Positions 8,601-61,107 of a DNA stretch of 64,000 nucleotides are shown here, piece after piece (positions within the stretch are counted from its first letter, which is position 1; each line of letters opens with the position of its first letter). The position numbers were made by a program, and so were the translations under genes. The DNA is from Flavobacterium sp. Root420 (GTDB lineage: Bacteria; Bacteroidota; Bacteroidia; Flavobacteriales; Flavobacteriaceae). The stretch is from contig NZ_LMEF01000009.1 of assembly GCF_001427905.1 (NCBI RefSeq), positions 1 to 64,000 on the forward strand, read 5' to 3'. Under the pieces are notes generated by a model, which had not been told where the DNA came from, did not search any database, and worked only from the letters and a program-made list of their open reading frames with translations.

Positions 8601-8656
8601 CAATTCGTGAATTCGTGGCTATTTTTTCCGCCACGAATTCACGAATTGTTTTTTTT
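8601..8656 (+). terminator. Strong hairpin with T run after the oxidoreductase gene
   Basis: A perfect 19-bp inverted repeat (8601-8619 and 8630-8648, CAATTCGTGAATTCGTGGC) with a 10-nt loop is followed by nine T. It uses the same 'ATTCGTGAATTCGTGG' word as the repeat block at 15945-16257. Two smaller palindromes follow, CCCGAGGCTTCGGG (8668-8681) and TCCCGATAGCTATCGGGA (8699-8716). Confidence 0.75.
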
Positions 8657-8722
8657 AATCTTTGCGTCCCGAGGCTTCGGGATTGCGTAGACCTTTGCTC
8701 CCGATAGCTATCGGGATTGCGG

Positions 8723-11632: not shown

Positions 11633-11844
11633 TATTTATGACCTGAAAATGAATTACAAAAATAGTTTTTTTTAGGTTGTTTTGATAGGTACAGAGGTGC
11701 AAAGTTTTTCCTCATTTTATGTCATTTTCGCCGGAGGAGAAATCCTCGCGAGAAGCTCGACAAAGATTGGATGTTTAGTGATATAAATTGTGCGCACGAG
11801 CGAGACGCTCGCACCAGCAGACTTCGAAAATATCAAGTAATTAA

Positions 11845-31379: not shown

Positions 31380-31464
31380 GGAGAAATGGCAGAGCGGTCG
31401 AATGCGGCAGTCTTGAAAACTGTTGACTGTAACAGGTCCGGGGGTTCGAATCCCTCTTTCTCCG
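31380..31464 (+). tRNA. tRNA-Ser (anticodon TGA)
   Basis: The 85-nt gene folds as a class II tRNA. The acceptor stem is GGAGAAA with TTTCTCC and G as discriminator. The anticodon stem GCAGT/ACTGT carries the loop CTTGAAA (anticodon TGA), followed by a long variable arm typical of serine and the T-arm GGGGGTTCGAATCCCTC. CCA is not encoded. The island integrase starts 300 bp downstream and GGTTCGAA of the T-arm recurs at the right end of the island, so this gene is the likely integration target. Confidence 0.95.
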
Positions 31465-31530
31465 CGAAGGCCCGAAAACAAAGGAAAAATAAGATTTTCA
31501 AAGTTTTCAAAAAAGGCCAAAAAAAGCGGT

Positions 31531-31607: not shown

Positions 31608-31658
31608 TTTGTGGCGCATTCGTGGCGCATTTTCAAAGTTCAAAGTTGCGCCACAAAA
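31608..31658. other. Putative left att arm (attL side)
   Basis: TTTGTGGCGCATTCGTGGCGCAT (31608-31630) contains two GTGGCGCAT words and is followed by an inverted GTTGCGCCACAAAA (31645-31658). The same arm type occurs at 42741, 60933, 61026 and, degenerate, at 58466 and 59860. Its position between the tRNA and the integrase suits a recombinase arm-binding site; this is inferred. Confidence 0.55.
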
Positions 31659-35190: not shown

Positions 35191-36054
35191 TTAAAAAGTG
35201 TCACTGCTTAATTCGGAAATCGGAAAAACCAGGTCAGTCAGATTATTATTTATGTCTACTTCCAAATGTCTTCCGCCGTTTTTTTCAATCATCTGAATCG
35301 TTAAATACTTATTCTCAGGTATAGTAAATTTCTCCAGCGCATAGACTTTTATTATTTCAGATTTATAAGGAATTACAGAAGACGATGAAGTTGCATACAA
35401 AGGCTCCAATTCAATTTCCTGTGAGGCAGTTCGTTTTGATTTTCTCTTATCCCTGATAAAAAAACGAAACTGATCAATATCATAATTAATCTTTGATTTG
35501 TTTTCAAAAACAACACGCAGATACAAAACATCCTGCTGGATAAAGATCCCGTTCACCTCCAGTCTGATCTGATACTTTGATTTTTTTAGACCACTGATTT
35601 TTTTCTTTTTGGAATACGCAGTCAAAGCACACTGTTCAATTCTTTTCTGATTTTCGTTTTCTAAAGAAAACAGCACATCCCTGCTTGCAACCACTGCATT
35701 TTCAGCCTTAAAATTTAAGTCAGGGCACGTTTCATCATAATTCAGTACAAAAACGTACAATTTCCCGTCAGATGTAACAACTGTCAGATTGGTCTGGAAA
35801 AAATGCTGTTTAGCAGCTTTTACAAGTAGTATATTCTCAACTCCTTTTGCTTTTTGTACAAGCACTTCTGCGCTTCCTTTATCTATGCTCTTGATTGTAT
35901 AAGGAAAAATAATGCTTGTGGTTTTAGAAAAACCTACTTGTAGATTTTTATACTGGTCTTCGTAAAAGGCAGTTTCCTTTGCGTTTGACTGTGGATTAAC
36001 TGAAACACAAACCAGCAGTAAGCTGATTAAAAACAAATAATTCACTCTTTTCAT
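35191..36054 (-). CDS. traN: Conjugative transposon protein TraN
   Basis: This 287-aa protein has a signal peptide (MKRVNYLFLISLLLVCVSVNPQS) and a mature beta-rich domain. The TraN pattern is FSKTTSIIFPYTIKSIDKGSAEVLVQKAKGVENILLVKAAKQHFFQTNLTVVTSDGKLYVFVLNY, which resembles VirB9-like proteins. It would be the periplasmic or outer-membrane part of the mating apparatus. It follows traM by 12 bp in the standard Bacteroidota order. Confidence 0.88.
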   Translation of the reverse strand: MKRVNYLFLISLLLVCVSVNPQSNAKETAFYEDQYKNLQVGFSKTTSIIFPYTIKSIDKGSAEVLVQKAKGVENILLVKAAKQHFFQTNLTVVTSDGKLYVFVLNYDETCPDLNFKAENAVVASRDVLFSLENENQKRIEQCALTAYSKKKKISGLKKSKYQIRLEVNGIFIQQDVLYLRVVFENKSKINYDIDQFRFFIRDKRKSKRTASQEIELEPLYATSSSSVIPYKSEIIKVYALEKFTIPENKYLTIQMIEKNGGRHLEVDINNNLTDLVFPISELSSDTF

Positions 36055-36066
36055 ATTTTCTCTCTT

Positions 36067-37356
36067 TTAAGGTTTTAAATTCTTTTGCTTTTCATCATAC
36101 AGCAGCACCTGATACCCCGCCTTTACAACCACTTTTATGAGTTTTACCTTTTTGCTCATCAGACTTTTGGCTGCCTCGATGCCCATACCTGCGGCCTGTG
36201 CACCCCAAGATTCCGAAATCCCGGTAAGGCCGAGTGTCTGGATAGAACGATCGGCAGATGCTTTAGCCACATCCCTGTTAATCGCTCCGGGAATATAGAT
36301 GCCGTCAATCCCGTCCATATCATAGACTGCCAGCTCGACGGGAAATATCGAATTATTGTACTGGATGTTTGTGATTTTCACCTCCAGCCTCTCTCCTTTT
36401 AAAGCCGCCATACCATACAGAAAAGCATTTCTGGGTATAATTGTTCCTTGGAGAAAAATATCATTCGTGAGTCTTAATTTAACCACCGAGCCATTGACAA
36501 TAGTCTGCGTCTGATGCACAACTGCTTCAATAGAATTTTGTATTTCTTCACCAGGCTGTGCTTCGTCCAGAGAATAAAATTCATTTGTTTTCAAAGAGGT
36601 CTGCAAATCGGCATTCCGCTGAAGTGAGCTTATGTTATTCTCTGCTTCTTTTTTCTGCACTGAATATATTTTGCCTTTTTTGCTCTCAGATGTTTTTTTA
36701 AGCCTTTCCTGCACGCGCTGCGGATGCTGTATATCCAAAATATTTTCCAGCATACCGCCTAACTGCTGAAGTTCTGGATCAGGTTCCTGGGTCGTGCTCA
36801 TCGTCGACATTAGCCCTTCAAGTTTTTTAATCTCTTCCGATTCTCCACGAGAAGTGCCGTAATTTTCAAATTCCCTCATGTCCTGACCGTAAGCAGGGAC
36901 AGCAGGCTGGCTGATTATGTTTTCAAGAGCCCTCAGCTTCTCATAAACTTTCTGTTCATTGCGGTCCTGAAAAGACTGAGAATTAAAAGCTGATCTGTTT
37001 TTTGGAAGCATGCGGGATTCAAAATCACTTGTGGAAAAAGAATCTGCTTTATCTTCCGAGACTTTATTATCAATATAGTTAGGATCTTTTTTTATCTGCT
37101 CTCGCAGTTTTATCGAATCAACTGCTGCCTGATCGTAATAGCTCATCTTATCCAGTGCTGAATCTTCTTTAAATTTAGGCAGTGGCAGATGAAAATTGAA
37201 TCCTTTCCTTTCGTCGTTCCCTGCCATCTTGGATTCCATTCTTCCGCCGCCTAATGAATAAAATAAGAATGTGAGAAATGGAAATGTTATAAGAGGCAGC
37301 ATTAAAAGCATCTTTCTCTTTTTAGATTCCTTTGGAGATAATGTTTTCTCTTGCAT
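36067..37356 (-). CDS. traM: Conjugative transposon protein TraM
   Basis: This 429-aa protein has one N-terminal membrane helix (about 16-34, LLMLPLITFPFLTFLFYSLGG), a long polar region and a C-terminal VirB10-like domain (about 270-425). The C-terminal domain includes VVHQTQTIVNGSVVKLRLTNDIFLQGTIIPRNAFLYGMA and AVYDMDGIDGIYIPGAINRDVAK, typical of Bacteroidota TraM. It links the inner and outer membranes in the mating channel. It sits between traL and traN with gaps of 4 and 12 bp. Confidence 0.9.
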   Translation of the reverse strand: MQEKTLSPKESKKRKMLLMLPLITFPFLTFLFYSLGGGRMESKMAGNDERKGFNFHLPLPKFKEDSALDKMSYYDQAAVDSIKLREQIKKDPNYIDNKVSEDKADSFSTSDFESRMLPKNRSAFNSQSFQDRNEQKVYEKLRALENIISQPAVPAYGQDMREFENYGTSRGESEEIKKLEGLMSTMSTTQEPDPELQQLGGMLENILDIQHPQRVQERLKKTSESKKGKIYSVQKKEAENNISSLQRNADLQTSLKTNEFYSLDEAQPGEEIQNSIEAVVHQTQTIVNGSVVKLRLTNDIFLQGTIIPRNAFLYGMAALKGERLEVKITNIQYNNSIFPVELAVYDMDGIDGIYIPGAINRDVAKASADRSIQTLGLTGISESWGAQAAGMGIEAAKSLMSKKVKLIKVVVKAGYQVLLYDEKQKNLKP

Positions 37357-37360
37357 AATT

Positions 37361-37612
37361 TTAGTTTTTTAAATTGATTGTCTTAATTTTTGAAGCTGTT
37401 GAAACCTCAGCTTGTTTATAAAATGTCCTATACAGGTTATAAATTAAATAACCCGATGTCAAAACCGTAAAGAACAGAAGTCCCCAGATCAGTTTTGTTT
37501 TAGAGAGCCCATCTGTGACTCTCTTCATTTTTTCTGCCCATCTTTTCTGCAATAGCAGATAATACTTGTGATACACAAAAGGCTCAGTCTGTCTTGTAAA
37601 AAAGGATTTCAT
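37361..37612 (-). CDS. traL: Small conjugative transposon membrane protein (TraL position)
   Basis: This 83-aa protein has one predicted membrane helix (about 44-64, KLIWGLLFFTVLTSGYLIYNLY). It lies between traK and traM with gaps of 6 and 4 bp, exactly where the small TraL gene sits in Bacteroidota conjugative transposons. The name rests mainly on position and size. Confidence 0.7.
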   Translation of the reverse strand: MKSFFTRQTEPFVYHKYYLLLQKRWAEKMKRVTDGLSKTKLIWGLLFFTVLTSGYLIYNLYRTFYKQAEVSTASKIKTINLKN

Positions 37613-37618
37613 AAATCT

Positions 37619-38239
37619 CTATTTTCTGATCTCTGCGGAAAGATCTTTGTTTTCAATCGTATTAAACCGCTCGATAAGAAAACCATGCGGATTATTATCG
37701 CTTCTTGATACATTGCGAAGCGCACCTTCTGTAAGCAGGCTTCTTTTCAAAATACTGGTAGTACGGATAATGTTCTGTCTGGCATAACATCTAAAACGGT
37801 AGGGATATTCACGGATATCAATGCTTATGCTATCAATCTGGATGCTCTGGCTGATATTTCCTGATATAATACCCGAATAAAAATTGTTTTCCTTCAGGTC
37901 ATCATAAATCCGTTTTGCACTGTCGTCTGCCAGATATAGCGCTTTTGTGATATTCGTTTTAATGACCTTATCATCAGGATCAAGGGTAAAGAAAAACTTG
38001 TGAAAGGTTTTCACATGGTCCCTTGCTTCAACAGCAATGTTATCTTTTCTTTCCGAAGCGTAAGCTTCCAGCGCTTTACCGTTTGCCAGAATATATACTT
38101 TATCCTGCATAAGGCTCACTGTCTGGAAACTTTTATAGACAGCATAGCAGCTTATTATGATGCAGCCTGCAATTACAAGCATCGTGAAACCTCTCACATA
38201 TCTAAATGCCGTATCAATGTTTTTCATTTTGGTAAACAT
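37619..38239 (-). CDS. traK: Conjugative transposon protein TraK
   Basis: This 206-aa protein has an N-terminal anchor (about 15-37, GFTMLVIAGCIIISCYAVYKSF) and a VirB8-like periplasmic domain. The family pattern is VEARDHVKTFHKFFFTLDPDDKVIKTNITKALYLADDSAKRIYDDLKE, followed by FYSGIISGNISQSIQIDSI. A later ATG at 38227 (MKNIDTAFRYVRG) fits the family start better than the ATG at 38239. It is part of the J-K-L-M-N operon. Confidence 0.9.
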   Translation of the reverse strand: MFTKMKNIDTAFRYVRGFTMLVIAGCIIISCYAVYKSFQTVSLMQDKVYILANGKALEAYASERKDNIAVEARDHVKTFHKFFFTLDPDDKVIKTNITKALYLADDSAKRIYDDLKENNFYSGIISGNISQSIQIDSISIDIREYPYRFRCYARQNIIRTTSILKRSLLTEGALRNVSRSDNNPHGFLIERFNTIENKDLSAEIRK

Positions 38240-38251
38240 ATGCTCCTGTTA

Positions 38252-38854
38252 TTAAGTCTGTTTAGAATTTCCTTTAAGCCTGTCATTCATATAGTTTCCT
38301 TTATCAGTAAAATAAGGACTGCTTCCTGCTGTCGCAGCCATGCTGCTGGTCATTCTCCGATCCGCATCTCCCATCGCATCAGCAGTCATTCCAACCGCAT
38401 TTGAAGAGGTTCTCATAACAGAACTAGCTGAATTTCCAAACATGCTTGTCACTTTATGACCCAGGGCTCCTCCTCCGCCTGCGTGAACAATATAATTGGC
38501 AACAGAAGGCACGGTAAAATATCCTATGATGCCTATTATCATGAAAATTAAATATGACATATCGGTCCTGCTGAAAAAAGTGTCACCTGTTGCCTGCACC
38601 TGCGAGAGGTCCAGCTTGAGCATGAGTTCCTGAATCTTTCCGATTATGCTTCCGAATATATTGGCAACAGGAAGCCAGAGGTAAATATTGATATATCGGG
38701 CAAGCCAGACAGTGAGCGTGTGCTGGAAGCCGTCAAATACTGCTATTCCAAATACCAGCGGACCTAAAATGGAAAGCACCACGAGCTGAAAGGTCCGAAG
38801 GGTGTCAATGCATAAGGCGGCAGCTTCAAACAAAACCCTCAGCACCTCGCTCAA
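38252..38854 (-). pseudogene. traJ: TraJ C-terminal remnant
   Basis: The 200 residues match the C-terminal part of the conjugative transposon membrane protein TraJ (about 330-400 aa in full): LFEAAALCIDTLRTFQLVVLSILGPLVFGIAVFDGFQHTLTVWLARYINIYLWLPVANIFGSIIGKIQE. Four membrane segments and a Gly/Ala/Ser-rich tail follow. Its 5' part is missing. At about 38835-38855 the sequence switches to the opposite-strand traG remnant. The protein could be made from an internal start but would lack its N-terminus. TraK follows 12 bp downstream. Confidence 0.85.
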
Positions 38855-39728
38855 CCGCGCATTCCTGAATGAGGCAGTCGACCAGCTGGAGGGTCAGATA
38901 GCGTCGGCTAAAATCTCGCTGGCGAAACTCTCCTCTCCTCAGCTTTACTACGTACTCTCGGGCAGTGATTTTACCCTTGACATTAATAATCCATCCGACC
39001 CGAAAATTGTTTCAATGGGGAACAATCCGCAGAAGATACAGACTTACGGGGCAGTTCTTTCCCTTTTTGTCAGCCGCCTTATCAAGCAGGTAAACCAGAA
39101 AGGAAAACTTAAAAGCAGTCTTGTTTTTGACGAGTTCCCCACTATCTATCTCAATAATATTGACAGTCTGATTGCAACAGCAAGAAGCAACAGAGTGAGC
39201 ACCTGTCTTGGAATTCAGGACTTCAGCCAGCTTCGTAAAGACTACGGCCGTGAGCAGGCTGATGTGATCATTAATATAGTCGGAAATATTGTCTCTGGAC
39301 AGGTCAGCGGGGATACTGCAAAACAGCTCTCAGAGCGTTTCGGAAAAATAATGCAGGATCGGGAAAGCCTTTCAATAAACAGCAGCGACACCTCCATCAG
39401 CCGTTCGCGACAACTCGAATCCGCAGTACCGCCTTCAAAGATTTCTTCGCTGAGTTCGGGGGAATTCGTGGGCATGACAGCCGATAACCCGGACTGCAGA
39501 ATTGAGCTTAAAACCTTTCACTGCGAGATCATCAACGACCACGAAAAAATTAAAAAAGAAACAGATAATTACCAAGAAATTCCGATCATACGGACAATTG
39601 ATAATGTTATCATCCAGAAAAATTATCTGCAGATTAAAATTGAGATTCAGGAAATAATCCACAGCGAAATGGAACGGATAATCAAAAGCCCGGCGCTTTC
39701 ATCGCTGGTTCTCAAAAAAGAAAAATAG
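38850..39728 (+). pseudogene. traG: TraG coupling-protein C-terminal remnant
   Basis: The plus strand encodes about 290 residues of the C-terminal half of the TraG/VirD4-type coupling ATPase: NEAVDQLEGQIASAKISLAKLSSPQLYYVLSGSDFTLDINNPSDPKIVSMGNNP, SSLVFDEFPTIYLNNIDSLIATARSNRVSTCLGIQDFSQLRKDYG (Walker B) and IVGNIVSGQVSGDTAKQLSERFGK. The Walker A half is absent. In intact elements traG lies upstream of traJ on the same strand; here it is inverted and joined head to head with traJ. The 5' boundary is the rearrangement junction near 38840-38850. Confidence 0.85.
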
Positions 39729-40790: not shown

Positions 40791-41792
40791 ATGGCAACAA
40801 CCGTAAATCAGGCATTTGAGCAGTTCCTGCACTACTATGTCAGAATAGACACCGCAAGGTCAGACACAGCTAAATCCAGTAAAAATAATCTGGTATCTGA
40901 AATCAAAAAATTTCCAGATGATAATAAATTCCCTCTCCTACATCCCGATGTAAGCATCGACTACGGATCATTTTCCAGAAAAACCAAAATCAGGCCTCTG
41001 GACGATATCGACCTGATGATTGTCCTACATGCCGAATCAAACTCCAGGACTCAGTACTCCGATCGCTTCGAGATTTCCGTACCACCTGCAGCCACAAGAC
41101 AGATAGCTCTGTGCAATGCGGGAACAAATATTTTAAATTCAATCAAAGTAATAAATAAATTCATAAGCTCTCTTTCTAGTGTATCTTACTACGATAAGGC
41201 AGAAATAAAACGTAATCAGGAAGCCGTTACTCTTAGTCTTAAATCCTACGAATGGGTGTATGACATTGTTCCGTGTTTCATTACTGCTCCTCTGGCTGAC
41301 GGGAGCACTTTCTATCTCATTCCCGACGGGAAGGGAAACTGGAAAGCTACCGACCCTCGAATTGATAAAAAAAGAATGGATTACATCAATAGCATCCAAG
41401 AGGTATCGGTAATTGAGGTAATCCGTATCTTGAAGTACTGGACCAAAAGACCTACTATGCCGACAATGAAATCCTATTTTCTTGAGAATCTGATACTCAA
41501 CTATTACAATTCAGGAGTTGAAAGTTCGAAATATATTGATATTGAAATACCAAAAGTCCTAGCTTATATCCATAATAACATCCACAAGCCTCTCAATGAC
41601 CCTAAAGGTTTTCAAGGAGACATAAATCATTTAACCTATGAAGAGAGAAATTCAATTCAGTCAAAAGCAGCCGTAGACTTCAAGACTGCTAACGAAGCAC
41701 GCCAGCTTGAAATAGGCAAGAAGATAAAAGAATCTATCATTAAATGGGGAAGCATTTTCGGAAGCGAATTTCCAAAATATACAGGAAGTTAA
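40791..41792 (+). CDS. CBASS cyclic-oligonucleotide synthase (CD-NTase / SMODS nucleotidyltransferase)
   Basis: This 333-aa protein has the Pol-beta-like nucleotidyltransferase core: G59-S60 in DYGSFSRKTKI, the metal-binding pair D72 and D74 in LDDIDLMIVL, and the third acid D158 in YEWVYDIVPCF. CD-NTases sense phage infection and make a cyclic nucleotide that activates an effector. The next gene, 3 nt downstream, is a four-helix membrane effector, giving a minimal (type I) CBASS without Cap2/Cap3 or HORMA/TRIP13 genes. The exact cyclic nucleotide cannot be read from the sequence. Confidence 0.9.
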   Translation: MATTVNQAFEQFLHYYVRIDTARSDTAKSSKNNLVSEIKKFPDDNKFPLLHPDVSIDYGSFSRKTKIRPLDDIDLMIVLHAESNSRTQYSDRFEISVPPAATRQIALCNAGTNILNSIKVINKFISSLSSVSYYDKAEIKRNQEAVTLSLKSYEWVYDIVPCFITAPLADGSTFYLIPDGKGNWKATDPRIDKKRMDYINSIQEVSVIEVIRILKYWTKRPTMPTMKSYFLENLILNYYNSGVESSKYIDIEIPKVLAYIHNNIHKPLNDPKGFQGDINHLTYEERNSIQSKAAVDFKTANEARQLEIGKKIKESIIKWGSIFGSEFPKYTGS

Positions 41793-41795
41793 GAT

Positions 41796-42671
41796 ATGAA
41801 TACAATAAAAACTTTACAGAATGATTGTGGTAAACTGAAGTATCTCAAAGCCGGAAGAGTATTGTATAGCAACGCTAAATATGCATTTGGAATACAAATT
41901 ATCGTTACGGTTGGTCTTACCATTATATTCAGTTTTATGAAATTAATTCCTAGGAACCAACTGGCTTTTGATCTCAATGCCTGCATCGGCATTGCCGCAG
42001 TTATAATTACATGCTCAGAAATTCTTTATTTCAATCTTTATGTTTCAGGCCTGCGTACATCAGGAGCTAAAGCACAGGAGCTATTTGATTGCAGTGTGTA
42101 CGTCCTCACATGGAATGCTATTAATTCGGGGTCAAAACCTGAAAAATATATAATTGAGCATAATTCCGCCCTGTATCTTCCTGACCCAAAAGCTCCCATT
42201 GAAAATTGGTATGACATTGATCTTGAAAATCTCTCTCGTGAACGTGCCATACTTCTCTGTCAGGAAACAAATTTATTTTACGATACGAAACTCAGAGAAC
42301 ATTTCAAAATGGCAAATATTTTAGTTTGTTTGGGTTTAGTTATTATATCCCTTGTTATAGCGGTGCTTTCTGACATTAAAGTTAACAACTATATTACTAC
42401 AGTGCTACTTCCAGTACTGCCTATGATAGTCTTAACTTTAAAAATTGTGATGGAAAACAGAAAATCATTGACATCCTCGATTGAGCTCAGAAAAACTATA
42501 CTGCAGCTTAAGGAAAGATCACAAGATCCCACTGAAGCCGAACTTAGATCAGTTCAGGATAAAATTTTCTGCAGCAGAAAAGACAGTCCACTAGTTCCCG
42601 ACTGGTATTACAAATGGAGAAGAACTTCACTGGAAATACTGATGAAAAAAAATGCAAATGCGGCTGAGTAA
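41796..42671 (+). CDS. CBASS S-4TM family putative pore-forming effector
   Basis: This 291-aa protein has four membrane segments in two pairs: about 29-50 and 60-84, then about 170-192 and 195-217. A cytoplasmic stretch between the pairs and a C-terminal helical domain (about 225-290, RKTILQLKERSQDPTEAELRSVQDKIF, then LVPDWYYKWRRTSLE) complete the S-4TM layout. Such effectors permeabilise the inner membrane once the CBASS nucleotide is made, leading to growth arrest or death of infected cells. Translation is coupled to the synthase, with stop and start 3 nt apart. Confidence 0.85.
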   Translation: MNTIKTLQNDCGKLKYLKAGRVLYSNAKYAFGIQIIVTVGLTIIFSFMKLIPRNQLAFDLNACIGIAAVIITCSEILYFNLYVSGLRTSGAKAQELFDCSVYVLTWNAINSGSKPEKYIIEHNSALYLPDPKAPIENWYDIDLENLSRERAILLCQETNLFYDTKLREHFKMANILVCLGLVIISLVIAVLSDIKVNNYITTVLLPVLPMIVLTLKIVMENRKSLTSSIELRKTILQLKERSQDPTEAELRSVQDKIFCSRKDSPLVPDWYYKWRRTSLEILMKKNANAAE

Positions 42672-42978: not shown

Positions 42979-43068
42979 TACATTTCTATTCTCTAAACTA
43001 AATAAAAAATTCACTGCTGTGTGCTTGTTTAGATACAATATTGTAGTAGTCAACAAGGAGTATTTTAA

Positions 43069-43076
43069 TATATTTG
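43069..43076 (+). promoter_or_regulatory. Possible -7 box of the NACHT gene
   Basis: TATATTTG fits TAnnTTTG; a TTG lies at 43041-43043, a long 25-nt spacing. If used, transcription would begin about 10 nt before the ATG at 43094, which supports that start over an upstream in-frame GTG at 43019. Confidence 0.35.
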
Positions 43077-43093
43077 AGAGAAAATTATTAACT

Positions 43094-46000
43094 ATGACAA
43101 ATCAGGAGAAAGGCAGCAGCTTTGAAAAAATTACACATGATTTTTTTATGTTTTTGTTCAAACAATTAAAAATTCAGGTGAATAATAACTGGGTTCAAAA
43201 GTCTGGTTTTCAGCATGGATTTGATGTAGGATTTGAAGTTGCGATTTTAAATGATGCTTTTTTTAAACGGGGTATATTTATTGAGTGTAAAAATTATGAG
43301 AAATCCATACTTGAACAAGCACATTTGCTTACCAAAGTAATGCAATTTGATAGATCGGCCTATGAAAAAAAAGACTCAATATTTATTTTTTTGTCTCCAA
43401 AAATTGATTTGAGCAAATGTACACAAGACTCAAATCCAAAACATTTGGAAGATTATTTCAATAAAATTAATCCGTTTAAGATCATTATTCTCACTCCAAA
43501 TAATAAAATAAAGGAAATATTATCTCTCAATGAAGAAATATTTTGCAAAGTCTATGAGGGTGAAGTCTATGCTAAAATGAATTCTGATACTCATAACAGC
43601 ATTCTGGAATACTTTGAAAAACTTCTATACTCAAAAGGTGAAATTCCAAATTTCAAGTTGTCTCAAAAACGAAAAGAATATTTGGAACAAGCATCAGTTT
43701 CTAAACCTAAACTCTATATAAGCAGAAAATTAAAAACAAATAAATTTTCATTCTCCTTTCAGGATAAAAATCTGCTGGATGTAATTAAAACAAACAGCCT
43801 TGTTTTATTGTTAGGCGAACCTGGTAGCGGCAAAACCACTGAACTCATCAATGTCTCAAAGTACTTCGAGAAAAACATTTCAAAACTTGAGATCACACCC
43901 ATATTTGTAAGTTTATCGGGTGTCAAAAAATTTGACAACCTGGATGATCTTTTACCTACCGATTGGGCTTTGAATAAAAAAACTGTACTGCTTCTTGATG
44001 CTTTGGATGAATTTGAATTTAAAAACGAGTTAAACAAGGTAATAGAAAATCTATTGGCATATAAGGATATAAGTTTTAAAATAATTGTTTCCTGCAGAAC
44101 ATATGCTTACAATGATGAACTAAAGTCTTTGGAGCCGGCAGCATTCTATTTAGATAATTTCAATTCTGATCAAAGTTTTGAACTGCTCAACAAAAAATAC
44201 AATATTCCATTAAGCAAATTTAATAAAATCAGCAGAAGCAATTTTAAGGATATACTTCAAGATCCCTTTATGCTTAACAGATTTGGTAAATATTATGAAA
44301 ACCATAAAAAATTACCTGTCTCTCTTTCTAGCATTTACGATGATATCAAGGAAGAGCTGGCTCAGGATGATCTGGAAGTATACAAAATCTTATCCCTTGT
44401 TTTAGAACTGACAAAACAGACAAGTGTTGATAAGAAGCAGCTCAAAGACCTTTTTGGAATTAAATATAAAAAATTAGTAAAACTGAGTTTAATAGAAAAT
44501 TCATTTGATAAAAGCAGTTTTAAATTTATCCATAAGAATTATCAGGAGTATTTTGCAGCGGCAGCCATCAGTGAACTAAGTTTTGAGCAGATCTTAAGTT
44601 TTATTTCGATTCAGGGAATAGAAAAGACGCACCCTACACTATTCAATACAATCACATTTTTAATTAATATTCTCGAAGATGACAAATACAATTCATTAAT
44701 AGGGTGGCTGACTATAAACAATCCTGAATTACTTATTAAGGCTGATAAAAGCAGGACCGCAAATTTTAGAGTTAAAGTGTTTCAGGATTATTTTAAATCC
44801 GAATGTGTCGAAAAAACTTTTTGGATTTCATCGGGAACCTTCTCTATCAAAGAAATCGCAGAATTTGGAAACTGCGAAGACAATTTTGACTATCTGGTTT
44901 CATTCATAACGGATCCCAACAATCATTTTAGAGCAGTTATCTCGGCACTGGAACTTTTAAGCTATTTTACAATACCTGAATACAAAAAAGAAAATCTTAA
45001 AACCCTATTTTTTAACTTCCTTACCAGCCCGGGACACTCAGAAATGATCAAGTCCCATATACTGGATTGTATTGCAGATCAAAAACTATGTGATGAAGAT
45101 CCCAAGTATTTAAATAACATTTTTGAACTCTTTAAACAGGAAACAAATAAACAGCTCAATAGATCGCTGCTATCTTTGATTGAATACCGTAAAGAAATTG
45201 ATACTTTCTTTTGGTTTATTAAAATGGAGTTTCTACTAGAAAAAGGATATAATGAAAGAGCGGTAAAAGATGAAGTAATAAGAGGAACAAGCTGGGTACT
45301 CGAAGAATTAATCCTTAGATTAGAAAAATCATCTCATTTTATCACTTTGGCTAAATATTATTTTGATGATGAAAAAGATGACTACAGCAGCAATGACTTT
45401 ATTGAAAAATTAATAAACAGATGCCTTTACTTTGAAGAGAGGGAAAAATCTTTTCTTACTGAACTGCTTTCTTCACTTCTTGATACAACAAAATTTTACC
45501 TTAGAGAAGATGCTTTAAAAACGTTGCTTCTAAAATTAAAGCCCGGAAGTCAGTTAGAAGCTTTTGATTGCTTAATCAGCCGTTTTTCTTTTGACAGGGT
45601 TGGTTATTTTCTAGCTTCCATTACCAATGAGAATACTATTGAGTTAATTATCAATAAATTTAGTGACGGTTCAGTGGAAGCCGCCAATCTTGATTATTAC
45701 AGAAATATAATGGCAAATCACGGGAAAAGATCTCTTGCCGAGCACTTCAACAATACTATGCTGGAGAAAGGATTCAAGTTTAACGAACCGCTATTAACTG
45801 ATAAAGAATATGATGAATTGGTTGCAAAATTCAAGAGTTTACCGCAGCAGAATTTTGATCTGTTATTCCATAAATCCGAATTGATTTCAAGAATAAAATC
45901 TTTATTTGAAGAACACGGGTCATCTATAAGTTCAGAGATGATTCGAAAAATTGAAACAAATTGGTACCATAAAAATGGTCATTCCAATAAAGGAGACATT

Positions 46001-47218
46001 GCAATCACTTTATTAAGAAGGCTCATCCATCAGCAAAATACGGAAGTAAAATTTGATGATGTCGAGCATCTACTGGAAGATGAAGCTACCTTAATAAATG
46101 AAATGAAATCACAGATTAGTGCATTAAATGATACCCATAATAATTTTGTAATCAGTAATGAACAGCAAAACAGGCTAAATCAATGGTGCCAAAAAGAATC
46201 ATACGAAATCCGTTTTGACAGAATCCTGCGATATGTTACTGCCGATAGATACGGTGCCCTTGAGGATTATGCCAAATTAAAAACAGTATTATTTTTTCTT
46301 ATGAAGTTTAATTTTGACCTGCCACAGGAATTTCTTTTAAACTGCATTGAATTCGTAGATGTAAATAATTCAAACGAAGGCGATGACAAACTTGAATGGT
46401 TAAAGCGTAAAATTAATAATGACCTTATTTTTAATCAAAGGATTATTGACAATATCAATACTAAAAATTTAGTATTTCTGCCTTTAAATATTCATATTCA
46501 ATATGCACTTGACAATAATTTAAGCGCAGCATTTTCAAAAATCAAAGAACATTTCTTAATGCCTGATTACAATTATAATATTGAAAAGAAACTTGAGCTA
46601 TTTGTAAATCTTACAAAAGATGTTGAACTGTTAAAAAAACTTTGTCAGGATGTTACAAGCCACAAATGCTGGTCTTCACTTAAAATTCTAATGGATTTAA
46701 AAATTGAACAAGATTTCTGCCAGCGGAAAGCAGCAGAATATCTTGAAACAGAAATCTTGGACGAAAAGAATTATTATAGCTCCACTGCCCTATCAATATT
46801 ATTTGAACTAAATTCAATTTCAGCAGTGAAATATGTTTCTAGCTTTTTAAACAAAAATCAACTTCCTTCATTAAGCCAGGCTTCCTATACAAATTATACT
46901 GCTATAGAAGACTTTAATATTTTAAAAACTTTATTTGATAAAATTTATAGAGTAGATTCAGAAGAAAGAGGATTTAGTGGATTAGGAAATTTTATTTTCG
47001 CCTACGTTTCAAATTTATCTAAAACTAAGCAAAGTTATGATTCGGTACAAGCCGAACTTATAAATATTAAAGTATGGGCGAAGGAACAAAATTTAGACAA
47101 TGAATTATTTCACGTTAATCAATTAATAGATAAATCTAAAAACAGTTACATAAACGCGCAATCCAAAGCACTCAATTTCAATGAAGCGTTACAAAAAGTA
47201 GAGCAAATCTTAAAATAG
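43094..47218 (+). CDS. Restriction-nuclease-fold / NACHT ATPase (bNACHT/Avs-like defence protein)
   Basis: This is a 1374-aa protein from the ATG at 43094. Residues 1-130 form a PD-(D/E)XK nuclease-like domain (D44 in HGFDVGFEV, E64-x-K66 in IFIECKNY). The NACHT NTPase follows, with Walker A GEPGSGKT (241-248), Walker B LLLDALDEF (D302, D305, E306) and the sensor-like IIVSCRTYAYN. The C-terminal region of about 850 residues is long and helical, Leu-, Phe- and Asn-rich, without a repeat I can name; in this class it is the ligand sensor. STAND NTPases of this type detect a phage protein, oligomerise and activate the N-terminal nuclease. It is transcribed alone. No partner gene is required by its architecture. 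Confidence 0.82.
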   Translation: MTNQEKGSSFEKITHDFFMFLFKQLKIQVNNNWVQKSGFQHGFDVGFEVAILNDAFFKRGIFIECKNYEKSILEQAHLLTKVMQFDRSAYEKKDSIFIFLSPKIDLSKCTQDSNPKHLEDYFNKINPFKIIILTPNNKIKEILSLNEEIFCKVYEGEVYAKMNSDTHNSILEYFEKLLYSKGEIPNFKLSQKRKEYLEQASVSKPKLYISRKLKTNKFSFSFQDKNLLDVIKTNSLVLLLGEPGSGKTTELINVSKYFEKNISKLEITPIFVSLSGVKKFDNLDDLLPTDWALNKKTVLLLDALDEFEFKNELNKVIENLLAYKDISFKIIVSCRTYAYNDELKSLEPAAFYLDNFNSDQSFELLNKKYNIPLSKFNKISRSNFKDILQDPFMLNRFGKYYENHKKLPVSLSSIYDDIKEELAQDDLEVYKILSLVLELTKQTSVDKKQLKDLFGIKYKKLVKLSLIENSFDKSSFKFIHKNYQEYFAAAAISELSFEQILSFISIQGIEKTHPTLFNTITFLINILEDDKYNSLIGWLTINNPELLIKADKSRTANFRVKVFQDYFKSECVEKTFWISSGTFSIKEIAEFGNCEDNFDYLVSFITDPNNHFRAVISALELLSYFTIPEYKKENLKTLFFNFLTSPGHSEMIKSHILDCIADQKLCDEDPKYLNNIFELFKQETNKQLNRSLLSLIEYRKEIDTFFWFIKMEFLLEKGYNERAVKDEVIRGTSWVLEELILRLEKSSHFITLAKYYFDDEKDDYSSNDFIEKLINRCLYFEEREKSFLTELLSSLLDTTKFYLREDALKTLLLKLKPGSQLEAFDCLISRFSFDRVGYFLASITNENTIELIINKFSDGSVEAANLDYYRNIMANHGKRSLAEHFNNTMLEKGFKFNEPLLTDKEYDELVAKFKSLPQQNFDLLFHKSELISRIKSLFEEHGSSISSEMIRKIETNWYHKNGHSNKGDIAITLLRRLIHQQNTEVKFDDVEHLLEDEATLINEMKSQISALNDTHNNFVISNEQQNRLNQWCQKESYEIRFDRILRYVTADRYGALEDYAKLKTVLFFLMKFNFDLPQEFLLNCIEFVDVNNSNEGDDKLEWLKRKINNDLIFNQRIIDNINTKNLVFLPLNIHIQYALDNNLSAAFSKIKEHFLMPDYNYNIEKKLELFVNLTKDVELLKKLCQDVTSHKCWSSLKILMDLKIEQDFCQRKAAEYLETEILDEKNYYSSTALSILFELNSISAVKYVSSFLNKNQLPSLSQASYTNYTAIEDFNILKTLFDKIYRVDSEERGFSGLGNFIFAYVSNLSKTKQSYDSVQAELINIKVWAKEQNLDNELFHVNQLIDKSKNSYINAQSKALNFNEALQKVEQILK

Positions 47219-53226: not shown

Positions 53227-54210
53227 CTAATGGGAGTTTCTCAATAAGTCAGTAATTTTGATCTGCACGATATTCTTCTGGTCAATTCCCATTAAAGAAA
53301 GCGTCTCTTTGTGGGCATCTTTTTCTACTTCCGCAAAATAAGAAACATGCCAGACCGCATCGGCTTTAATCTTTGCCTTTATCTCCTCAAAATACTTCAG
53401 GTCGACCTCAGAAATGGAGTGTCCCAAAACAATCACCTTCCCGACATCCCCAAGGCTTGAGAAGAACCTGCTGTTCTCTATGATGATTGCCGCAGTATTT
53501 TTAAAGGCTTTGGTATAGTAGGACAATATTTCCTCTTTGGCGCTTTCATATGAGTAGTCGTACTGGTCTGCACGCTCCTGCTCCCATTCAAAAAGCTCCT
53601 CATCACTGAGCCCCGCAGGAGGTCTTTGCTCTTCAGATTGGAAATTTGCGGGATCCGTTCCATGCCCTAAAATCAGGCTACTCTCGTCCTCCGAAGCTCT
53701 GTTATGTATATAGGTTATCCTTTTATCTCCTATCTCGTAGGCTTGAGAAAGCGTGCTGGTGTAATTGAAGCTCAAAAAATGGCTGTCATCGTCAATTTCT
53801 ATAAGTGCCTTTTCAAGAATGCTTCCATAATCGGCTTTAAGTATGAAACTGTTGAACTCGCCCACTAGGTTTGTGGTCAGATCCTTAATAATCAGCTCCA
53901 TCTGCTGCTGGTACTGGTGCCATTCCCGGTCTTTGAAATCCTCTGCAGACGGATTGGCAATCCAGTCGGAATTGTCATCCAGCACAGAAATATAGTCCAA
54001 GTCTGCAAGAGCCTGCTCAAATCTAGACCATATGCCGTACTCCTCGTCGGTAAGATCAGGATCGGTGATGTCGGGAAGGCCGTAATAGGTAAGCAGAAGA
54101 TTATAGAGCTCTGAATTGTTTTCATCCAGATATTGCGCAAAGCTCTGATATCTGGTGTCAAGGCCATGGTGGATATCAAAACCGTTGCCGATAATGTAGA
54201 GTGTCTTCAT
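53227..54210 (-). CDS. abiH: AbiH-family abortive-infection protein
   Basis: From the ATG at 54210 this is a 327-aa protein starting MKTLYIIGNGFDIHHGLDTRYQSFAQYL, the AbiH signature (GNGFD at 8-12, followed by HGLxTxY). Further family blocks are HFLSFNYTSTLSQAY, YIHNRASEDESSLILGHGTDP and VIVLGHSISEVDLKYFEEI. AbiH proteins stop phage growth by abortive infection; the mechanism is not known. The open frame extends upstream by 14 residues, but the internal ATG matches the family start. A DUF3800 gene ends 63 bp upstream on the same strand, suggesting a two-gene unit. Confidence 0.88.
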   Translation of the reverse strand: MKTLYIIGNGFDIHHGLDTRYQSFAQYLDENNSELYNLLLTYYGLPDITDPDLTDEEYGIWSRFEQALADLDYISVLDDNSDWIANPSAEDFKDREWHQYQQQMELIIKDLTTNLVGEFNSFILKADYGSILEKALIEIDDDSHFLSFNYTSTLSQAYEIGDKRITYIHNRASEDESSLILGHGTDPANFQSEEQRPPAGLSDEELFEWEQERADQYDYSYESAKEEILSYYTKAFKNTAAIIIENSRFFSSLGDVGKVIVLGHSISEVDLKYFEEIKAKIKADAVWHVSYFAEVEKDAHKETLSLMGIDQKNIVQIKITDLLRNSH

Positions 54211-54273
54211 TCTGTAGTATTTACATTTTATATTTCTTTTTTTCAATCTCAAAATATGTTTGCCCGTAAACTT

Positions 54274-55332
54274 TTAGGAAAAGTACTCCGCCAAAAAGTC
54301 ATTCGGATTTATGCCACTGGGATCCGCGCTTCTTACGGCGTCTAGGGACTCGCTGTCCGATGGCCAGAGGATTACCGCGTTCGAGAGGTCAAGGAGCTTG
54401 GTTTTCTGGATTTCTCTCGCGAAAGGCGAATTGCTTCCTTGTTCATTCTTGTACATAAAGGTTATAGCGCTTGCAATCAAGTCCGCGCACTGCACCCCGA
54501 ACTCATCCTTTGAGTCTACCATCTTAAGATCGCCGATCTGCGGAGGAAAAGTCATCACGCGCTCATCGTACCCGAGCTGGGTCTTCTCCGCTCCGCTTGC
54601 GGCCAGTTGCCTTGTATGGTCCAGATAATCGCTGTAATGGCTGACCTGCTTAGAAACGTCAAGCTTCACATCGATAAGGCCTTTATGAAGCTTGTACCAG
54701 CGGTCGCACAAAACCAGAAATGAAGAGAATGTGACGTCAATGGTATACTTGTCAGCGCAGTCCAGTATGTCATCAATATATTTTCTGCTTTCCAGAACCG
54801 GCTCAAGCACGCTTTTCTCTTCCACCGAGTCCAAAAGCGTTGCCGCAGTTTGGTAGAAACCCTCCACGGACTCGGGTGTCTTGGTTCTGATCATCTCAAC
54901 AAAGTACCGTATCAGATCAGCATATAACTGCTTGTCCCAGAAAAAATTTCCAAAATAAAATAGATAGTTCATGTAGAATAGGTTGTTTCCCTTTACATAG
55001 ATATCATGTCCGCGGTGATGCATGACAGTTTCGATCAGCTGGTCTGTAATCTGCCCGCAGACATTGAATTCCTTATGCACCGCATAAAACATAATATTCG
55101 ATTCGGTTATCAATTCGTGATCGAGGAACTCCAGTATCTTTTTCCTTCCCTCAATGCTCTTTCTCAACTTCTTGAAATGCATCTCCCCCTTGACTCCGAA
55201 AATCTTTTCAAGCTCTCCAAGCTCCTTTTCATTAAAACTTACTGAAGCCAGCACAAATACCGGCTGCTCTGCATTGAGCATATCCTGTCCCGTATTTCCT
55301 GACTCATCGAAATAAACTATTCTTTTTGACAT
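54274..55332 (-). CDS. DUF3800 domain protein
   Basis: This 352-aa protein begins MSKRIVYFDESGNTGQDML, the DUF3800 start (D9, E10, the first acids of an RNase-H-like fold). It has HFKKLRKSIEGRKKILEFLD in the middle and the C-terminal EFGVQCADLIASAITF, whose aspartate completes the acidic site. DUF3800 proteins are predicted nucleases often found in defence islands. It precedes AbiH by 63 bp and probably shares its transcript. The divergent gap (55333-55764) contains its promoter region. Confidence 0.85.
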   Translation of the reverse strand: MSKRIVYFDESGNTGQDMLNAEQPVFVLASVSFNEKELGELEKIFGVKGEMHFKKLRKSIEGRKKILEFLDHELITESNIMFYAVHKEFNVCGQITDQLIETVMHHRGHDIYVKGNNLFYMNYLFYFGNFFWDKQLYADLIRYFVEMIRTKTPESVEGFYQTAATLLDSVEEKSVLEPVLESRKYIDDILDCADKYTIDVTFSSFLVLCDRWYKLHKGLIDVKLDVSKQVSHYSDYLDHTRQLAASGAEKTQLGYDERVMTFPPQIGDLKMVDSKDEFGVQCADLIASAITFMYKNEQGSNSPFAREIQKTKLLDLSNAVILWPSDSESLDAVRSADPSGINPNDFLAEYFS

Positions 55333-55764: not shown

Positions 55765-57492
55765 ATGATTTATCAGATAATTTTGCCCTTCTGTGCAGTT
55801 TTTCCAAATGAATCTCCGAGAGAAATTAAAGAATATATCAAGGGAATTTCAAAAGAAACACTGATCACCGCCGGCTGCTTCTTTCTTGGATTCAAGACCT
55901 ATGGTTCCAAGTATGCAGATCCTTCAGCTTTCTTGAAGATGCTTTTCGGCAGCGACAAAGTACAGATTGAAAAAGCAGAACAAAACATTAAAGCATTTCT
56001 CGCCGCAAACCGATATGTTTCGGAAACCCCTACAATTCCGCATGTGGTAAGCAGTTTGCAGTTTTTTGAAATTGCCTATAAACTTGATGCAGCAGAGCAG
56101 ACTAAAACACAAAAACAAAGCGAGCTGGATATTCTCAAAGCTTATCTGCTTTTGAATGAGAGTTTATCCGAAAGAACCCGAACCGTTGAACAGATTGAAC
56201 AGCACTTTCAAGGTCACATGAGAATTGTCGCCAATCACCTCTTCTACCAGTTTGACAGGTTTGATTTGACCAATTACGATACCGATAAGCTCTATTCCAC
56301 CCAATTATTGAGAGCCTGCATGTTTTTTGAATTCTTAAGCCAGAGGAAAGACTGCGCACTGCTTCTGCATGAATTCTATCGCCATTTTGAAGTTAAAGAC
56401 CATAAGGATTACCTTAAGCGCATATTAACCCTATCCTTTGTAGTAATTACTGCAGAAAAGGAGGCCCAAACGGATATCGTTTTGGAAAATGATCCAGAGC
56501 AGGCATCTTTTCTCGACAGGATGGCAATAAATAATGCTGAAATTATAGACGATTTTGATTTTAAAGCAATCAGGGCAAATCCAATATATAAGGTTTCAGA
56601 GGGAATATACAGAATAATATCGCCTCTTTTTGCAATAGAACTGATCTACAATGGATTAGTCTGGAAATTTAAAGAAATATACGATAAGATGCCTGAACAG
56701 GACAGGCCAAAAAGTTTTCAAGGTTTGAAAACCCTCGATTTTTCAGAAAAATTTGTGCTCAATAGCGTTCTTCCAAAATATTTTGATGAGCGGCATATGC
56801 AAAAGACTGGCCAAGAGCTGGACGAAAACTATCAAGGCGCTCCAGACTACTACGTCAGGAATTTGAATAGCATAATTCTATTTGAATCTAAGGATATCAT
56901 GATTAATGCTGAAGTAAAGCAATCTGTTGATTTTCTGAAAATAGAGCAGGCATTAAAGGAAAAATTGTATAAAAAATCAAACGGCAAATCAAATGCCGTG
57001 CTGCAGCTCATTAAATCAATCGAAAAAATACTGTCCAAAAAGCAGGCTTTCGACAGCGACTATTCTCTCGACAAAGTTACCATCAGCCCAGTAATAATAC
57101 TACATAACAGAATGTTTAATAACACGGGCCTCAATAAATTCATAAATTTCTGGTTTCAGGAAGAGCTTCAGATCCTAAAAAATAAAGGTTTTAAAATCTC
57201 CAATATAAGGCCACTCGTCATTATTGACATAGACACGTTGATTTTTAACCAGGACCTTTTTTCTGATCGAACTCTCGATTTGGAATCTTGCCTGCATGAA
57301 TACCAGACCCAATATGTAGGTTACAGCGGCCCAGGATCTGTCCAGCATCCAATTGCGCAACAATTTAGTCCAACCGCCGATAAAGAAAGCTTGCTGCCAT
57401 TTGCAAAATATCTGGAAAATAAAATTCTCCATATGGGGCTGCGCCGCATACCTCGGGAAGCAAAATTAAAGAACACTGAAATATTTAATTAA
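55765..57492 (+). CDS. Uncharacterised PD-(D/E)XK-like protein, first gene of a pair
   Basis: This 575-aa protein belongs to no family I can name. Residues about 320-480 look like a PD-(D/E)XK nuclease core: D361 in GAPDYYVRNLNSIILFE, E374-x-K376 in FESKD, then a helix with KQSVDFLKIEQALKEKLY and LQLIKSIEKIL, and a later strand VTISPVIILHNR. The N-terminal 300 residues are helical (LLRACMFFEFLSQRKDCALLLHEFYRHF). It is followed after 21 bp by a PIN-like gene on the same strand. The setting among AbiH, DUF3800 and AbiTii points to a defence role by association. The nuclease assignment rests on pattern and predicted layout only. Confidence 0.6.
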   Translation: MIYQIILPFCAVFPNESPREIKEYIKGISKETLITAGCFFLGFKTYGSKYADPSAFLKMLFGSDKVQIEKAEQNIKAFLAANRYVSETPTIPHVVSSLQFFEIAYKLDAAEQTKTQKQSELDILKAYLLLNESLSERTRTVEQIEQHFQGHMRIVANHLFYQFDRFDLTNYDTDKLYSTQLLRACMFFEFLSQRKDCALLLHEFYRHFEVKDHKDYLKRILTLSFVVITAEKEAQTDIVLENDPEQASFLDRMAINNAEIIDDFDFKAIRANPIYKVSEGIYRIISPLFAIELIYNGLVWKFKEIYDKMPEQDRPKSFQGLKTLDFSEKFVLNSVLPKYFDERHMQKTGQELDENYQGAPDYYVRNLNSIILFESKDIMINAEVKQSVDFLKIEQALKEKLYKKSNGKSNAVLQLIKSIEKILSKKQAFDSDYSLDKVTISPVIILHNRMFNNTGLNKFINFWFQEELQILKNKGFKISNIRPLVIIDIDTLIFNQDLFSDRTLDLESCLHEYQTQYVGYSGPGSVQHPIAQQFSPTADKESLLPFAKYLENKILHMGLRRIPREAKLKNTEIFN

Positions 57493-57513
57493 AGCCTTAA
57501 CATATCAGTTTTG

Positions 57514-58344
57514 ATGAGATATTATTTGGATACTGTCGCAATTAGAAAATTAAGCAGAGAGCTTAATGGAATAAAAGACCGTTGCTACACATCGGCCCTG
57601 TGCATTTTCGAATTGATTTCGGGAATAAACCAAAAAGAATTTTCCGCAAGGAAGAAGGCCCTGGAAAACCTGTTCAATTCTGGTATCCAAATCATATGGG
57701 AACTTCCTGAAGCCATGAAAACCTATGCATTTCCACTTGTTGAAATACAGGAAAGCAGGACTCCTGGCTTAAAAATGCTATCCAACCACCTCTTAAAAAG
57801 CGCTGATATTGATGAATTTATATCTAACACTAGAGATCATATTTATTCACAGGACTTTTTTAATGAATTGGACGGCATTTATTCATCCGGTTTTATCACG
57901 GCAACAAGCAGAGGCAATCAGACATTAAAAGAAATATTCCAGCAAATAAGGGAGAAAGATGGCGAAGTATTTGAAAAGATAGCAAAAGATTATTTAAGAT
58001 CTTTAGCCACCGATCCGATTAACAGGCAAATTACCATCAGTGCAATTGCCAACAATCTGGCTGCTGGGGTAAGAAAATCAGGAGATCAGATCGAGGTTAC
58101 TGAAGTTATTGAAAGTTATAACGGAAGCATAGACGTTTTCATAGATGCATTTTCGCTCTATACAATACAAAAAAGCGCGCTTTTTAACAGTCCCTCCAAA
58201 AATGATTTCGTAGACCTGCACCATCTACTATACCTAGGAAATGAACAGAAAGACTGCATTGTCACTGACGATAAGATGATTCTTGAAATTACTCCGTATT
58301 CCATTTCAATTGATGGTTTTAAAAATATAATTGCAAACTTTTGA
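57514..58344 (+). CDS. PIN-like domain protein, second gene of the pair
   Basis: From the ATG at 57514 (a TTG sits just before it) this is a 276-aa protein. It begins MRYYLDTVAIRKL (D6, first PIN acid) and has ALCIFELISGIN (E33). The C-terminal segment is NDFVDLHHLLYLGNEQKDCIVTDDKM (D231, D234, D252), the order of acids in PIN ribonucleases. An insertion of about 150 residues (about 70-215) separates the halves, which makes it larger than VapC toxins (about 130 aa). No VapB-type antitoxin is adjacent. It is probably an RNA-cutting effector partner of the preceding protein; the target is unknown. Confidence 0.65.
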   Translation: MRYYLDTVAIRKLSRELNGIKDRCYTSALCIFELISGINQKEFSARKKALENLFNSGIQIIWELPEAMKTYAFPLVEIQESRTPGLKMLSNHLLKSADIDEFISNTRDHIYSQDFFNELDGIYSSGFITATSRGNQTLKEIFQQIREKDGEVFEKIAKDYLRSLATDPINRQITISAIANNLAAGVRKSGDQIEVTEVIESYNGSIDVFIDAFSLYTIQKSALFNSPSKNDFVDLHHLLYLGNEQKDCIVTDDKMILEITPYSISIDGFKNIIANF

Positions 58345-58851: not shown

Positions 58852-58998
58852 ATGATAAAACAGCTTATTACAGATTTAAGTTATGATCAAATTTCATTAA
58901 TTCAAGGCCTTTCAAGAGCAAAATTAATTGCCTTCGAAATCCAAAACTCAGACTTTAAAAACTGGATTGTAAGTGAGCTAAAAGGATATCAAGCGTAG
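58852..58998 (+). pseudogene. AbiTii domain N-terminal fragment
   Basis: The 48 codons MIKQLITDLSYDQISLIQGL, SRAKLIAFEIQNSDFKNWI and VSELKGYQA match the start of the AbiTii domain (LI-D-L, L---L-KAK-LA--L---E---W---EL-GY). Intact proteins continue with PxYR and several hundred residues. Here the frame is cut at TAG, which overlaps a GGTTCGAA core sequence at 58998-59005, so the gene was probably truncated by recombination at that site. Confidence 0.7.
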
Positions 58999-60715: not shown

Positions 60716-60932
60716 AAGATACTTGTGGGTTTATTAAATTTATTAATATGACGAAAGTATAGAAAATAAATTAATAAAAAGCCTATAGATCTAACAGAAT
60801 TGAAGACCTCAATTAAGTAAATTCTAGTAAGTTTTTAATTCAAAAAAAGTCGTTCATTTATTTGGACGTGATATAAATCCATCTAAAAAAAGCAATCGCC
60901 AATACGGTAGATATTTAATCTTAAACGGTTTT

Positions 60933-61107
60933 ATGGCAGAATCGTGGCACATACTATTTTGGACTGGATACCTTTTTTGCCACAAAAAGTTAAGGTGACT
61001 TTTAAAGATATTTCACCCTTCTAAGTTTTGTGGCAGAATCGTGGCGCATGGAGTTTTTGAAAAATAGAAACTTAGCAAAACCAGGGTCTGGCGAGTTTAG
61101 GTTCGAA
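60933..61107. other. att-like module 3 with an extra arm; proposed right island end
   Basis: An extra arm ATGGCAGAATCGTGGCACA (60933-60951) precedes TGCCACAAAAAGTTAAG (60978-60994), the arm TTTTGTGGCAGAATCGTGGCGCA (61026-61048) and the core GGTTCGAA (61100-61107), 74 nt after the arm. It is the outermost copy and the least degenerate one, and chromosome-like genes begin just after it. The remaining part of 60716-61255 shows no gene. Confidence 0.6.

Follow-up and report, generated by a model that had tools for sequence, protein, structure and literature searches.

Solitary PD-(D/E)XK nucleases are a known kind of gene in defence-rich mobile DNA, Shedu being one example. For the heterodimeric type IIS restriction enzyme Nt.BspD6I/R.BspD6I, passages of a published report (PMC6261011) place the active centre of Nt.BspD6I in its C-terminal domain, assign binding of the recognition site to its N-terminal domain, and describe the D456A and E418A forms as catalytically deficient. 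Here, we analysed two adjacent genes of Flavobacterium sp. Root420 in a stretch of 64,000 nucleotides (contig NZ_LMEF01000009.1, positions 1 to 64,000; hereafter, the window), which a first reading made from the letters and open reading frames (the sequence-only reading) had proposed to be an uncharacterised cassette of a PD-(D/E)XK-like and a PIN-like protein. Open reading frame (ORF) calling confirmed the coordinates, protein lengths and 21-bp gap given there. Gene 1 (P0001, 55765–57492, plus strand) encodes 575 amino acids with a helical N-terminal region of about residues 1–170 and a predicted C-terminal FokI/BspD6I-type PD-(D/E)XK region. Gene 2 (P0002, 57514–58344, plus strand), which we regard as a separate cargo gene, encodes 276 amino acids with the PIN-like acids D6, E33, D231/D234 and D252/D253; it starts with the ATG at 57514, an alternative upstream TTG at 57511 giving 277 amino acids. 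Both genes are intact and on the same strand, with a spacer at 57493–57513, and gene 1 is single-copy in its own genome, as judged by a genome search. Our analysis indicates, with a probability of roughly 0.62, that the two genes are independent cargo of a defence-rich conjugative element that now lie next to each other, gene 1 being a self-standing nuclease.

Comparing the occurrence of both genes across genomes showed that they are not a conserved system. A gene-2 profile scan of the open frames in 61 gene-1 loci (59 scanned first and two added) revealed no gene-2 relative beside gene 1 apart from that in the window, and both controls (the window and the locus of a gene-2 relative in genome G310) were found. 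Among the 59 loci, three places are duplicated (L016/L026, L017/L029, and L019/L063), and 14 loci do not reach 15 kb owing to contig ends or smaller flanks. The same profile, which also recovers the window and G310 in other searches, detected no relative anywhere in 51 genome entries holding gene 1, representing 44 of the 49 loci from our genome collection (all but L029, L037, L045, L048, and L061) and seven others, with at least two genomes duplicated. Gene 1 was in turn absent from the two genomes with gene-2 relatives, in a search that matched all six genomes known to hold it. The proposed cassette was thus not borne out: homologues were not neighbours at any other locus examined, and gene-2 relatives stand without gene 1. 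Because gene-2 relatives are missing from these 61 loci and 51 genome entries, we reject a two-gene system as the principal explanation. A genuine pair of cooperating DNA and RNA nucleases, either young or confined to few strains, would be in line with the shared strand, the 21-bp gap and the matched base composition of the genes (G+C of 38.0% for gene 1 and 36.7% for gene 2; 40.3% and 35.7% at third codon positions), which is unlike that of the flanks (43–46% for the genes for AbiH and DUF3800 on the left, 26–31% for the genes on the right). Given zero co-occurrence, with a sampling of gene 2 that was partial (395, 395, and 249 genomes), such a system is nevertheless very improbable. With a gap of 21 bp, co-transcription is likely; the genes may thus share a transcript here and may act together in this strain. 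A strict-pattern search for a Bacteroidota-type promoter before gene 1 retrieved none. More generally, two nuclease-like genes may lie a short gap apart without forming a system, and a co-occurrence test tells such cases apart. The striking combination of a DNA and an RNA nuclease did therefore not survive this test, and the noteworthy part of the locus is the family of gene 1.

This family is defined by a strictly conserved set of putative catalytic residues. The sequence-only reading had assigned a nuclease core with D361, E374, and K376 to the 575-amino-acid protein, and these residues were found at the named positions, D361 following P360. Aligning gene 1 with 36 relatives, which are 22 to 56% identical to it, revealed E328, D361, E374, K376, and Q414 to be invariant in 37 of 37 sequences. 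The corresponding codons lie on the plus strand at 56746–56748 (E328, in the helix of residues 318–338 preceding the nuclease strands of the model), 56845–56847 (D361, the predicted catalytic aspartate of the PD motif) and 56884–56892 (E374-S-K376, forming the ExK motif that closes the modelled strand 369–376). The full invariant set comprises E120, D265, S327, E328, P360, D361, F373, E374, K376, Q414, P442, G455, N457, and D490. The alignment (A3) contains gene 1 and 36 of the 49 genome-collection loci, retains two near-identical pairs of rows (L028/L031 and L032/L035) and omits 13 redundant, broken or partial loci (L029, L030, L033, L037, L041, L045, L047, L049, L054, L061, L069, L070, and L071). 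Because the search peptides used to find the loci cover the motifs PD and ExK, ascertainment accounts for part of the conservation of both. However, E328 and Q414 fall outside these peptides and are invariant nonetheless. The same five residues were also invariant in an earlier ten-row alignment (A2) collected without these peptides, half of whose rows came from plasmid or family searches only. With 37 of 37 aligned sequences sharing it, the catalytic pattern is far beyond chance.

At the sequence level, gene 1 is not recognised by the models compared. Searches of Pfam, NCBIfam and PADLOC (E values up to 1), of PHROGs (E up to 0.001) and of PDB sequences (E up to 10, with either the single sequence or a profile) gave no match. 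Only one of the 37 family members matched the generic PADLOC PD_DExK model (E 1.7e-4). Neither gene 1 nor gene 2 matched PADLOC-DB 2.0.0 at E up to 1, in agreement with the sequence-only reading, which knew of no named defence system containing this pair; this release, from 2023, is the newest defence library compared. Likewise, word searches of one open-access library returned no paper recognisable as describing the gene-1 family or the gene pair.

Fold prediction and fold search, which the sequence-only reading had suggested as a check, recovered a nuclease fold for gene 1. The AlphaFold2 model reached a mean predicted local distance difference test (pLDDT) score of 87.7 and a predicted template modelling (pTM) score of 0.89. 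Its helix 318–338, strands 345–348, 362–366 and 369–376, subsequent helices and strand 439–446 follow the usual order, and the motif E...PD...ExK sits on the expected strands: strand 362–366 starts beside D361, E374 and K376 end strand 369–376, E328 lies in helix 318–338, and Q414 in helix 411–423. The top structural matches were Nt.BspD6I (Z 10.4 over 201 residues, root-mean-square deviation (rmsd) 5.0), FokI (Z 8.8), and R.BspD6I2 (Z 8.5), and restriction enzymes or nucleases related to them make up most of the named matches with a high Z. Foldseek aligned gene 1 to R.BspD6I2, the small subunit, with a probability of 0.99 and a target TM score of 0.55. The matched region spans residues 172–561, while the first 170 residues are helical in the model and barely covered by the fold search. 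A match to Upx (Z 7.2, rmsd 9.0) was set aside, its Z being in the range that the tool calls common. Together, the model and its matches strongly support a restriction-endonuclease-like core fold, as predicted for a PD-(D/E)XK nuclease; with the invariance of the named residues, this part of the sequence-only reading was substantiated.

These structural matches bear on two other explanations for gene 1. Since its best matches are type IIS enzymes, gene 1 could be a type IIS restriction enzyme of the classical sort, with a partner methylase that has been lost or is encoded elsewhere in the genome. We consider this improbable: no methylase was recognised among the window genes tested beside gene 1, none was constant among 113 neighbouring proteins from 30 loci (MTase_II and N6_N4_Mtase twice each, among the matches listed), and a spread to many genera in the absence of a linked methylase would burden the recipient. 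Alternatively, gene 1 could be a nuclease effector that is activated by a signal made by a neighbour, as in a CBASS-like pair, and would then resemble Can2 or Cdn1, nucleases that cyclic nucleotides activate. Both proteins are among its structural matches (Z about 6.3–7.1), and the window holds a CBASS-like pair of a SMODS nucleotidyltransferase and an S_4TM effector (40791–42671, plus strand; Pfam E 4.5e-12 and 3.1e-65). Yet, these Z values are again in the range called common, what overlaps is chiefly the nuclease core common to these proteins, and the neighbours of gene-1 relatives are varied and include no constant signal maker, which makes an activated effector of this kind very unlikely.

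Gene 1 belongs to a mobile family. Within the same taxonomic family, a plain protein search matched 8 of 299 genomes, that of the window included; relatives were also detected in eight plasmid records, all from Hymenobacter, and at 49 loci of the genome collection, of which 48 are titled as taxa that we take to be Bacteroidota. The remaining locus is titled as a Limnohabitans metagenome-assembled genome (MAG); its gene-1 relative adjoins a gene pair also present in the genus of the window, and misbinning or transfer is therefore likely. An identical gene of 1740 nucleotides is shared by three genera, the loci being titled as Zeaxanthinibacter, Maribacter spongiicola and an Aquimarina MAG, and the Maribacter litoralis copy differs from it at two positions. 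This identity across genera indicates recent transfer, unless the Aquimarina MAG contig is misassigned. Two gene-1 relatives lie directly after a tRNA gene among 16 loci scanned (tRNA-Met in L067 and tRNA-Leu in L068). No relative was found in phage records, and among viral contigs a single one was retrieved (L074, listed in IMG/VR), two other viral-contig searches yielding none. L074 carries TraM and therefore looks like a conjugative transposon despite its listing as viral; with no phage match and this sole viral-contig match, a viral origin of gene 1 was discarded. At L063/L019, the gene next to the gene-1 relative weakly matches a terminase (E 1.6e-6), so that some copies may reside in prophages.

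The neighbours of gene-1 relatives are diverse. At individual loci, we observed TraN, TraM, TraK and an AbiEii pair (L010), MmeI (L009), a long pAgo-type gene (L012), BrxL and part of PglZ (L062), and an LmuA-like gene (L023). Among the matches listed for the 113 neighbours, AbiEii and pAgo occurred three times each, AbiEi, PDC-S06 and LmuA twice each, Phage_integrase three times, the coupling protein of type IV secretion systems twice, and BrxL and PglZ once each; ordinary genes such as three metal-transporting ATPases and parts of cytochrome oxidase were present as well. A PADLOC mad3 hit near the relative in L067 was dropped as a defence neighbour, since Pfam identified the protein as an ABC-transporter ATPase. 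The repeated presence of gene 1 in conjugative transposons and plasmids would agree with a function for the mobile element itself, e.g., the exclusion of rival elements, instead of phage defence. As relatives are also located in regions with pAgo, BrxL/PglZ or AbiE genes, we regard this explanation as unlikely.

Two arrangements seen in the locus survey deserve separate mention. In L018, a large AAA_13 ATPase (PDC-S06, weakly PrrC) is encoded directly before the gene-1 relative, the frames 7647–9383 and 9343–11634 overlapping, and the relative in L062 likewise directly follows a large AAA_13 ATPase; within this branch, ATPase and nuclease may constitute a two-gene arrangement. Moreover, the gene-1 relative of L056 and the gene-2 relative of L079 lie, in different genomes, on opposite sides of one and the same pair of chromosomal genes (1025 and 360 amino acids), which is a possible shared hotspot for incoming genes.

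Gene 2 is rare. One relative, 34% identical, was found in G310 (in the order, 2 of 395 genomes matched, including that of the window) about 390 bp before a contig end, with no long open frame in that space. A second one, in G1188 of the same genus as the window, is split over two frames and follows a gene for a TPR protein. In total, 3 of 249 genomes matched: the own genome, G1188, and the doubtful G1143 (E 7.3e-4, four internal stops). A phylum sample of 395 genomes returned the own genome and one false match only, in G678 (E 6e-4), which was rejected because it lies in a long ORF reading as another protein, presumably an aminoacyl-tRNA synthetase. No relatives were detected in plasmids, phages, or viral contigs, and a viral origin was rejected for gene 2 as well.

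The PIN-like character of gene 2 is weak. All acids named by the sequence-only reading (D6, E33, D234, and D252) are present, and E33, D231, D234, and D253 are conserved across the three gene-2 sequences; by contrast, D6 is replaced by Glu in both relatives and D252 by Gly in the broken copy. The Pfam PIN model scored 14.3 bits (E 0.066), below its cut-off of 23.6, the two relatives did not match PIN models at E up to 1, and profile comparison with eight PIN proteins (hhalign) gave a probability of 1.4% and hence no support. A single-sequence structure model was unusable (pLDDT 40.4). Matches to PDB sequences were short, the best being CpcN (E 2.5e-4, 41 residues), with no stretch passing alone, and were taken as chance. 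PIN domains usually space the acids in question about 55–60 residues apart. The 201 residues between E33 and D234 would thus agree with the 150-residue insertion described before, at about 140–150 residues, provided that gene 2 is a PIN domain at all. Overall, the pattern of acids tips the balance slightly in favour of a PIN-like fold. In our view, gene 2 is a rare and independent cargo gene that came to lie 21 bp behind gene 1 and that may encode a PIN-like RNase toxin.

Several observations weigh against independent cargo with a self-standing nuclease. The matched G+C content of both genes, unlike that of their flanks, would also fit their arrival as a unit, and only two true gene-2 relatives are known, one of them broken and the other near a contig end. 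Foldseek returned nothing for gene 1 at E of 0.001 or below (best match Nt.BspD6I, E 4.4e-3, query TM score 0.21), and the superposition on Nt.BspD6I is loose, as its rmsd of 5.0 indicates. In addition, the neighbour tally was compiled without a control set, so that an enrichment of defence genes is described only.

The gene-1 family combines conserved catalytic residues and the predicted fold with mobility and has no fixed partner in the loci examined; we infer that it functions in defence. Tentatively, and at slightly less than even odds, we propose that it is a hitherto unnamed, single-gene immune nuclease found in Bacteroidota, consisting of a FokI/BspD6I-type domain and a helical sensor, which moves between genera on conjugative elements without a methylase or fixed partner. 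The protein would cut double-stranded DNA with metal ions bound at E328, D361, E374, and K376, and its N-terminal region would recognise a feature of invading DNA or of the infection. It could thereby act as a solitary (type IV-like) restriction enzyme or as a DNA-cutting abortive nuclease, a view suggested by the lack of a host-protecting methylase travelling with gene 1. Without a linked methylase, the host would be spared through recognition of modified or foreign DNA, or through activation during infection. If gene 1 is indeed a single-gene immune nuclease, the absence of both methylase and fixed partner implies that discrimination between self and non-self resides in the protein itself.

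In the window, gene 1 and gene 2 are part of an element with conjugative transfer genes. A tyrosine recombinase (integrase; 31763–33055, plus strand) about 300 bp after a tRNA-Ser gene (31380–31465) likely marks the left end of the element. It is followed by domain matches to conjugative-transposon transfer genes (35191–39728), namely a TraN-like DUF4138 protein, TraM, a VirB8-like protein below the cut-off, and a TraG/coupling protein; SSB and PcfJ are encoded as well. The cargo includes the SMODS/S_4TM pair, a subsequent nSTAND3 protein of 1399 amino acids (43019–47218), AbiH (53227–54252, minus strand; Pfam E 9.8e-65, PADLOC E 3.8e-20), and DUF3800 (54274–55332, minus strand; Pfam E 1e-14), in accordance with the defence-gene setting noted in the sequence-only reading. 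The AbiTii neighbour named there did match AbiTii (E 5.7e-9) but is only an N-terminal piece of 48 amino acids with a premature stop (58852–58995, plus strand; profile positions 3–48 of 189). Repeats of GTGGCGCAT (exact or with one mismatch) are present at 31610–31630 and 60943–61049, with six sites in the window versus 1.30 expected, and may represent recombinase arm sites at the two element ends. At the right end, two 55-base copies (60909–60963 and 61006–61060) are 73% alike and are perhaps two element ends in tandem. The att-like module previously proposed as right boundary does exist as a repeat: it lies at 58531 and recurs at 58992 and 61094, and the copies of AGCKTAGGTTCGAAA at 58531 and 58992 adjoin the AbiTii fragment. 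As a boundary it is weak, because its 13-base core (up to two mismatches) is no more frequent in the window (three) than in shuffled sequences (mean of 2.43).

Among described proteins, VapC-like PIN RNases resemble gene 2 in its start (of the kind MRYYLDT), in having a Glu early in the chain and in the acids late in it, within SPSKNDFVDLHHLLYL and IVTDD, but gene 2 differs from them in its sub-cut-off PIN score, its long insertion, the Glu as first acid in both relatives, and the lack of a recognised antitoxin gene. Gene 1 has the C-terminal PD-(D/E)XK cleavage domain in common with the BspD6I enzyme. The residues E418 and D456 of Nt.BspD6I would be comparable to E328 and D361 of gene 1 by their order in the chain, not by residue alignment. 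In contrast to Nt.BspD6I, to which it has no detectable sequence similarity, gene 1 has no fixed second subunit or methylase, and the match excludes the N-terminal region. FokI carries the same type of cleavage domain at its C-terminus, with its N-terminal part outside the match, and again gene 1 lacks a linked methylase. This poses the question of how a FokI-like enzyme spares the host genome without one. Shedu (SduA), a single-gene defence with a PD-(D/E)XK domain, is similar in kind to our candidate and matches it weakly in structure (Z 5.7 and 5.1). Screening the 37 family members against PADLOC-DB 2.0.0 (E up to 1) resulted in matches to three model families, none of which was Shedu. If gene 1 defends, the defence inventory of Bacteroidota would gain a transferable single-gene nuclease family for which the libraries searched contain no recognisable model. 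The gene-1 family is new to these model libraries, while the solitary nuclease, as exemplified by Shedu, is a kind already known.

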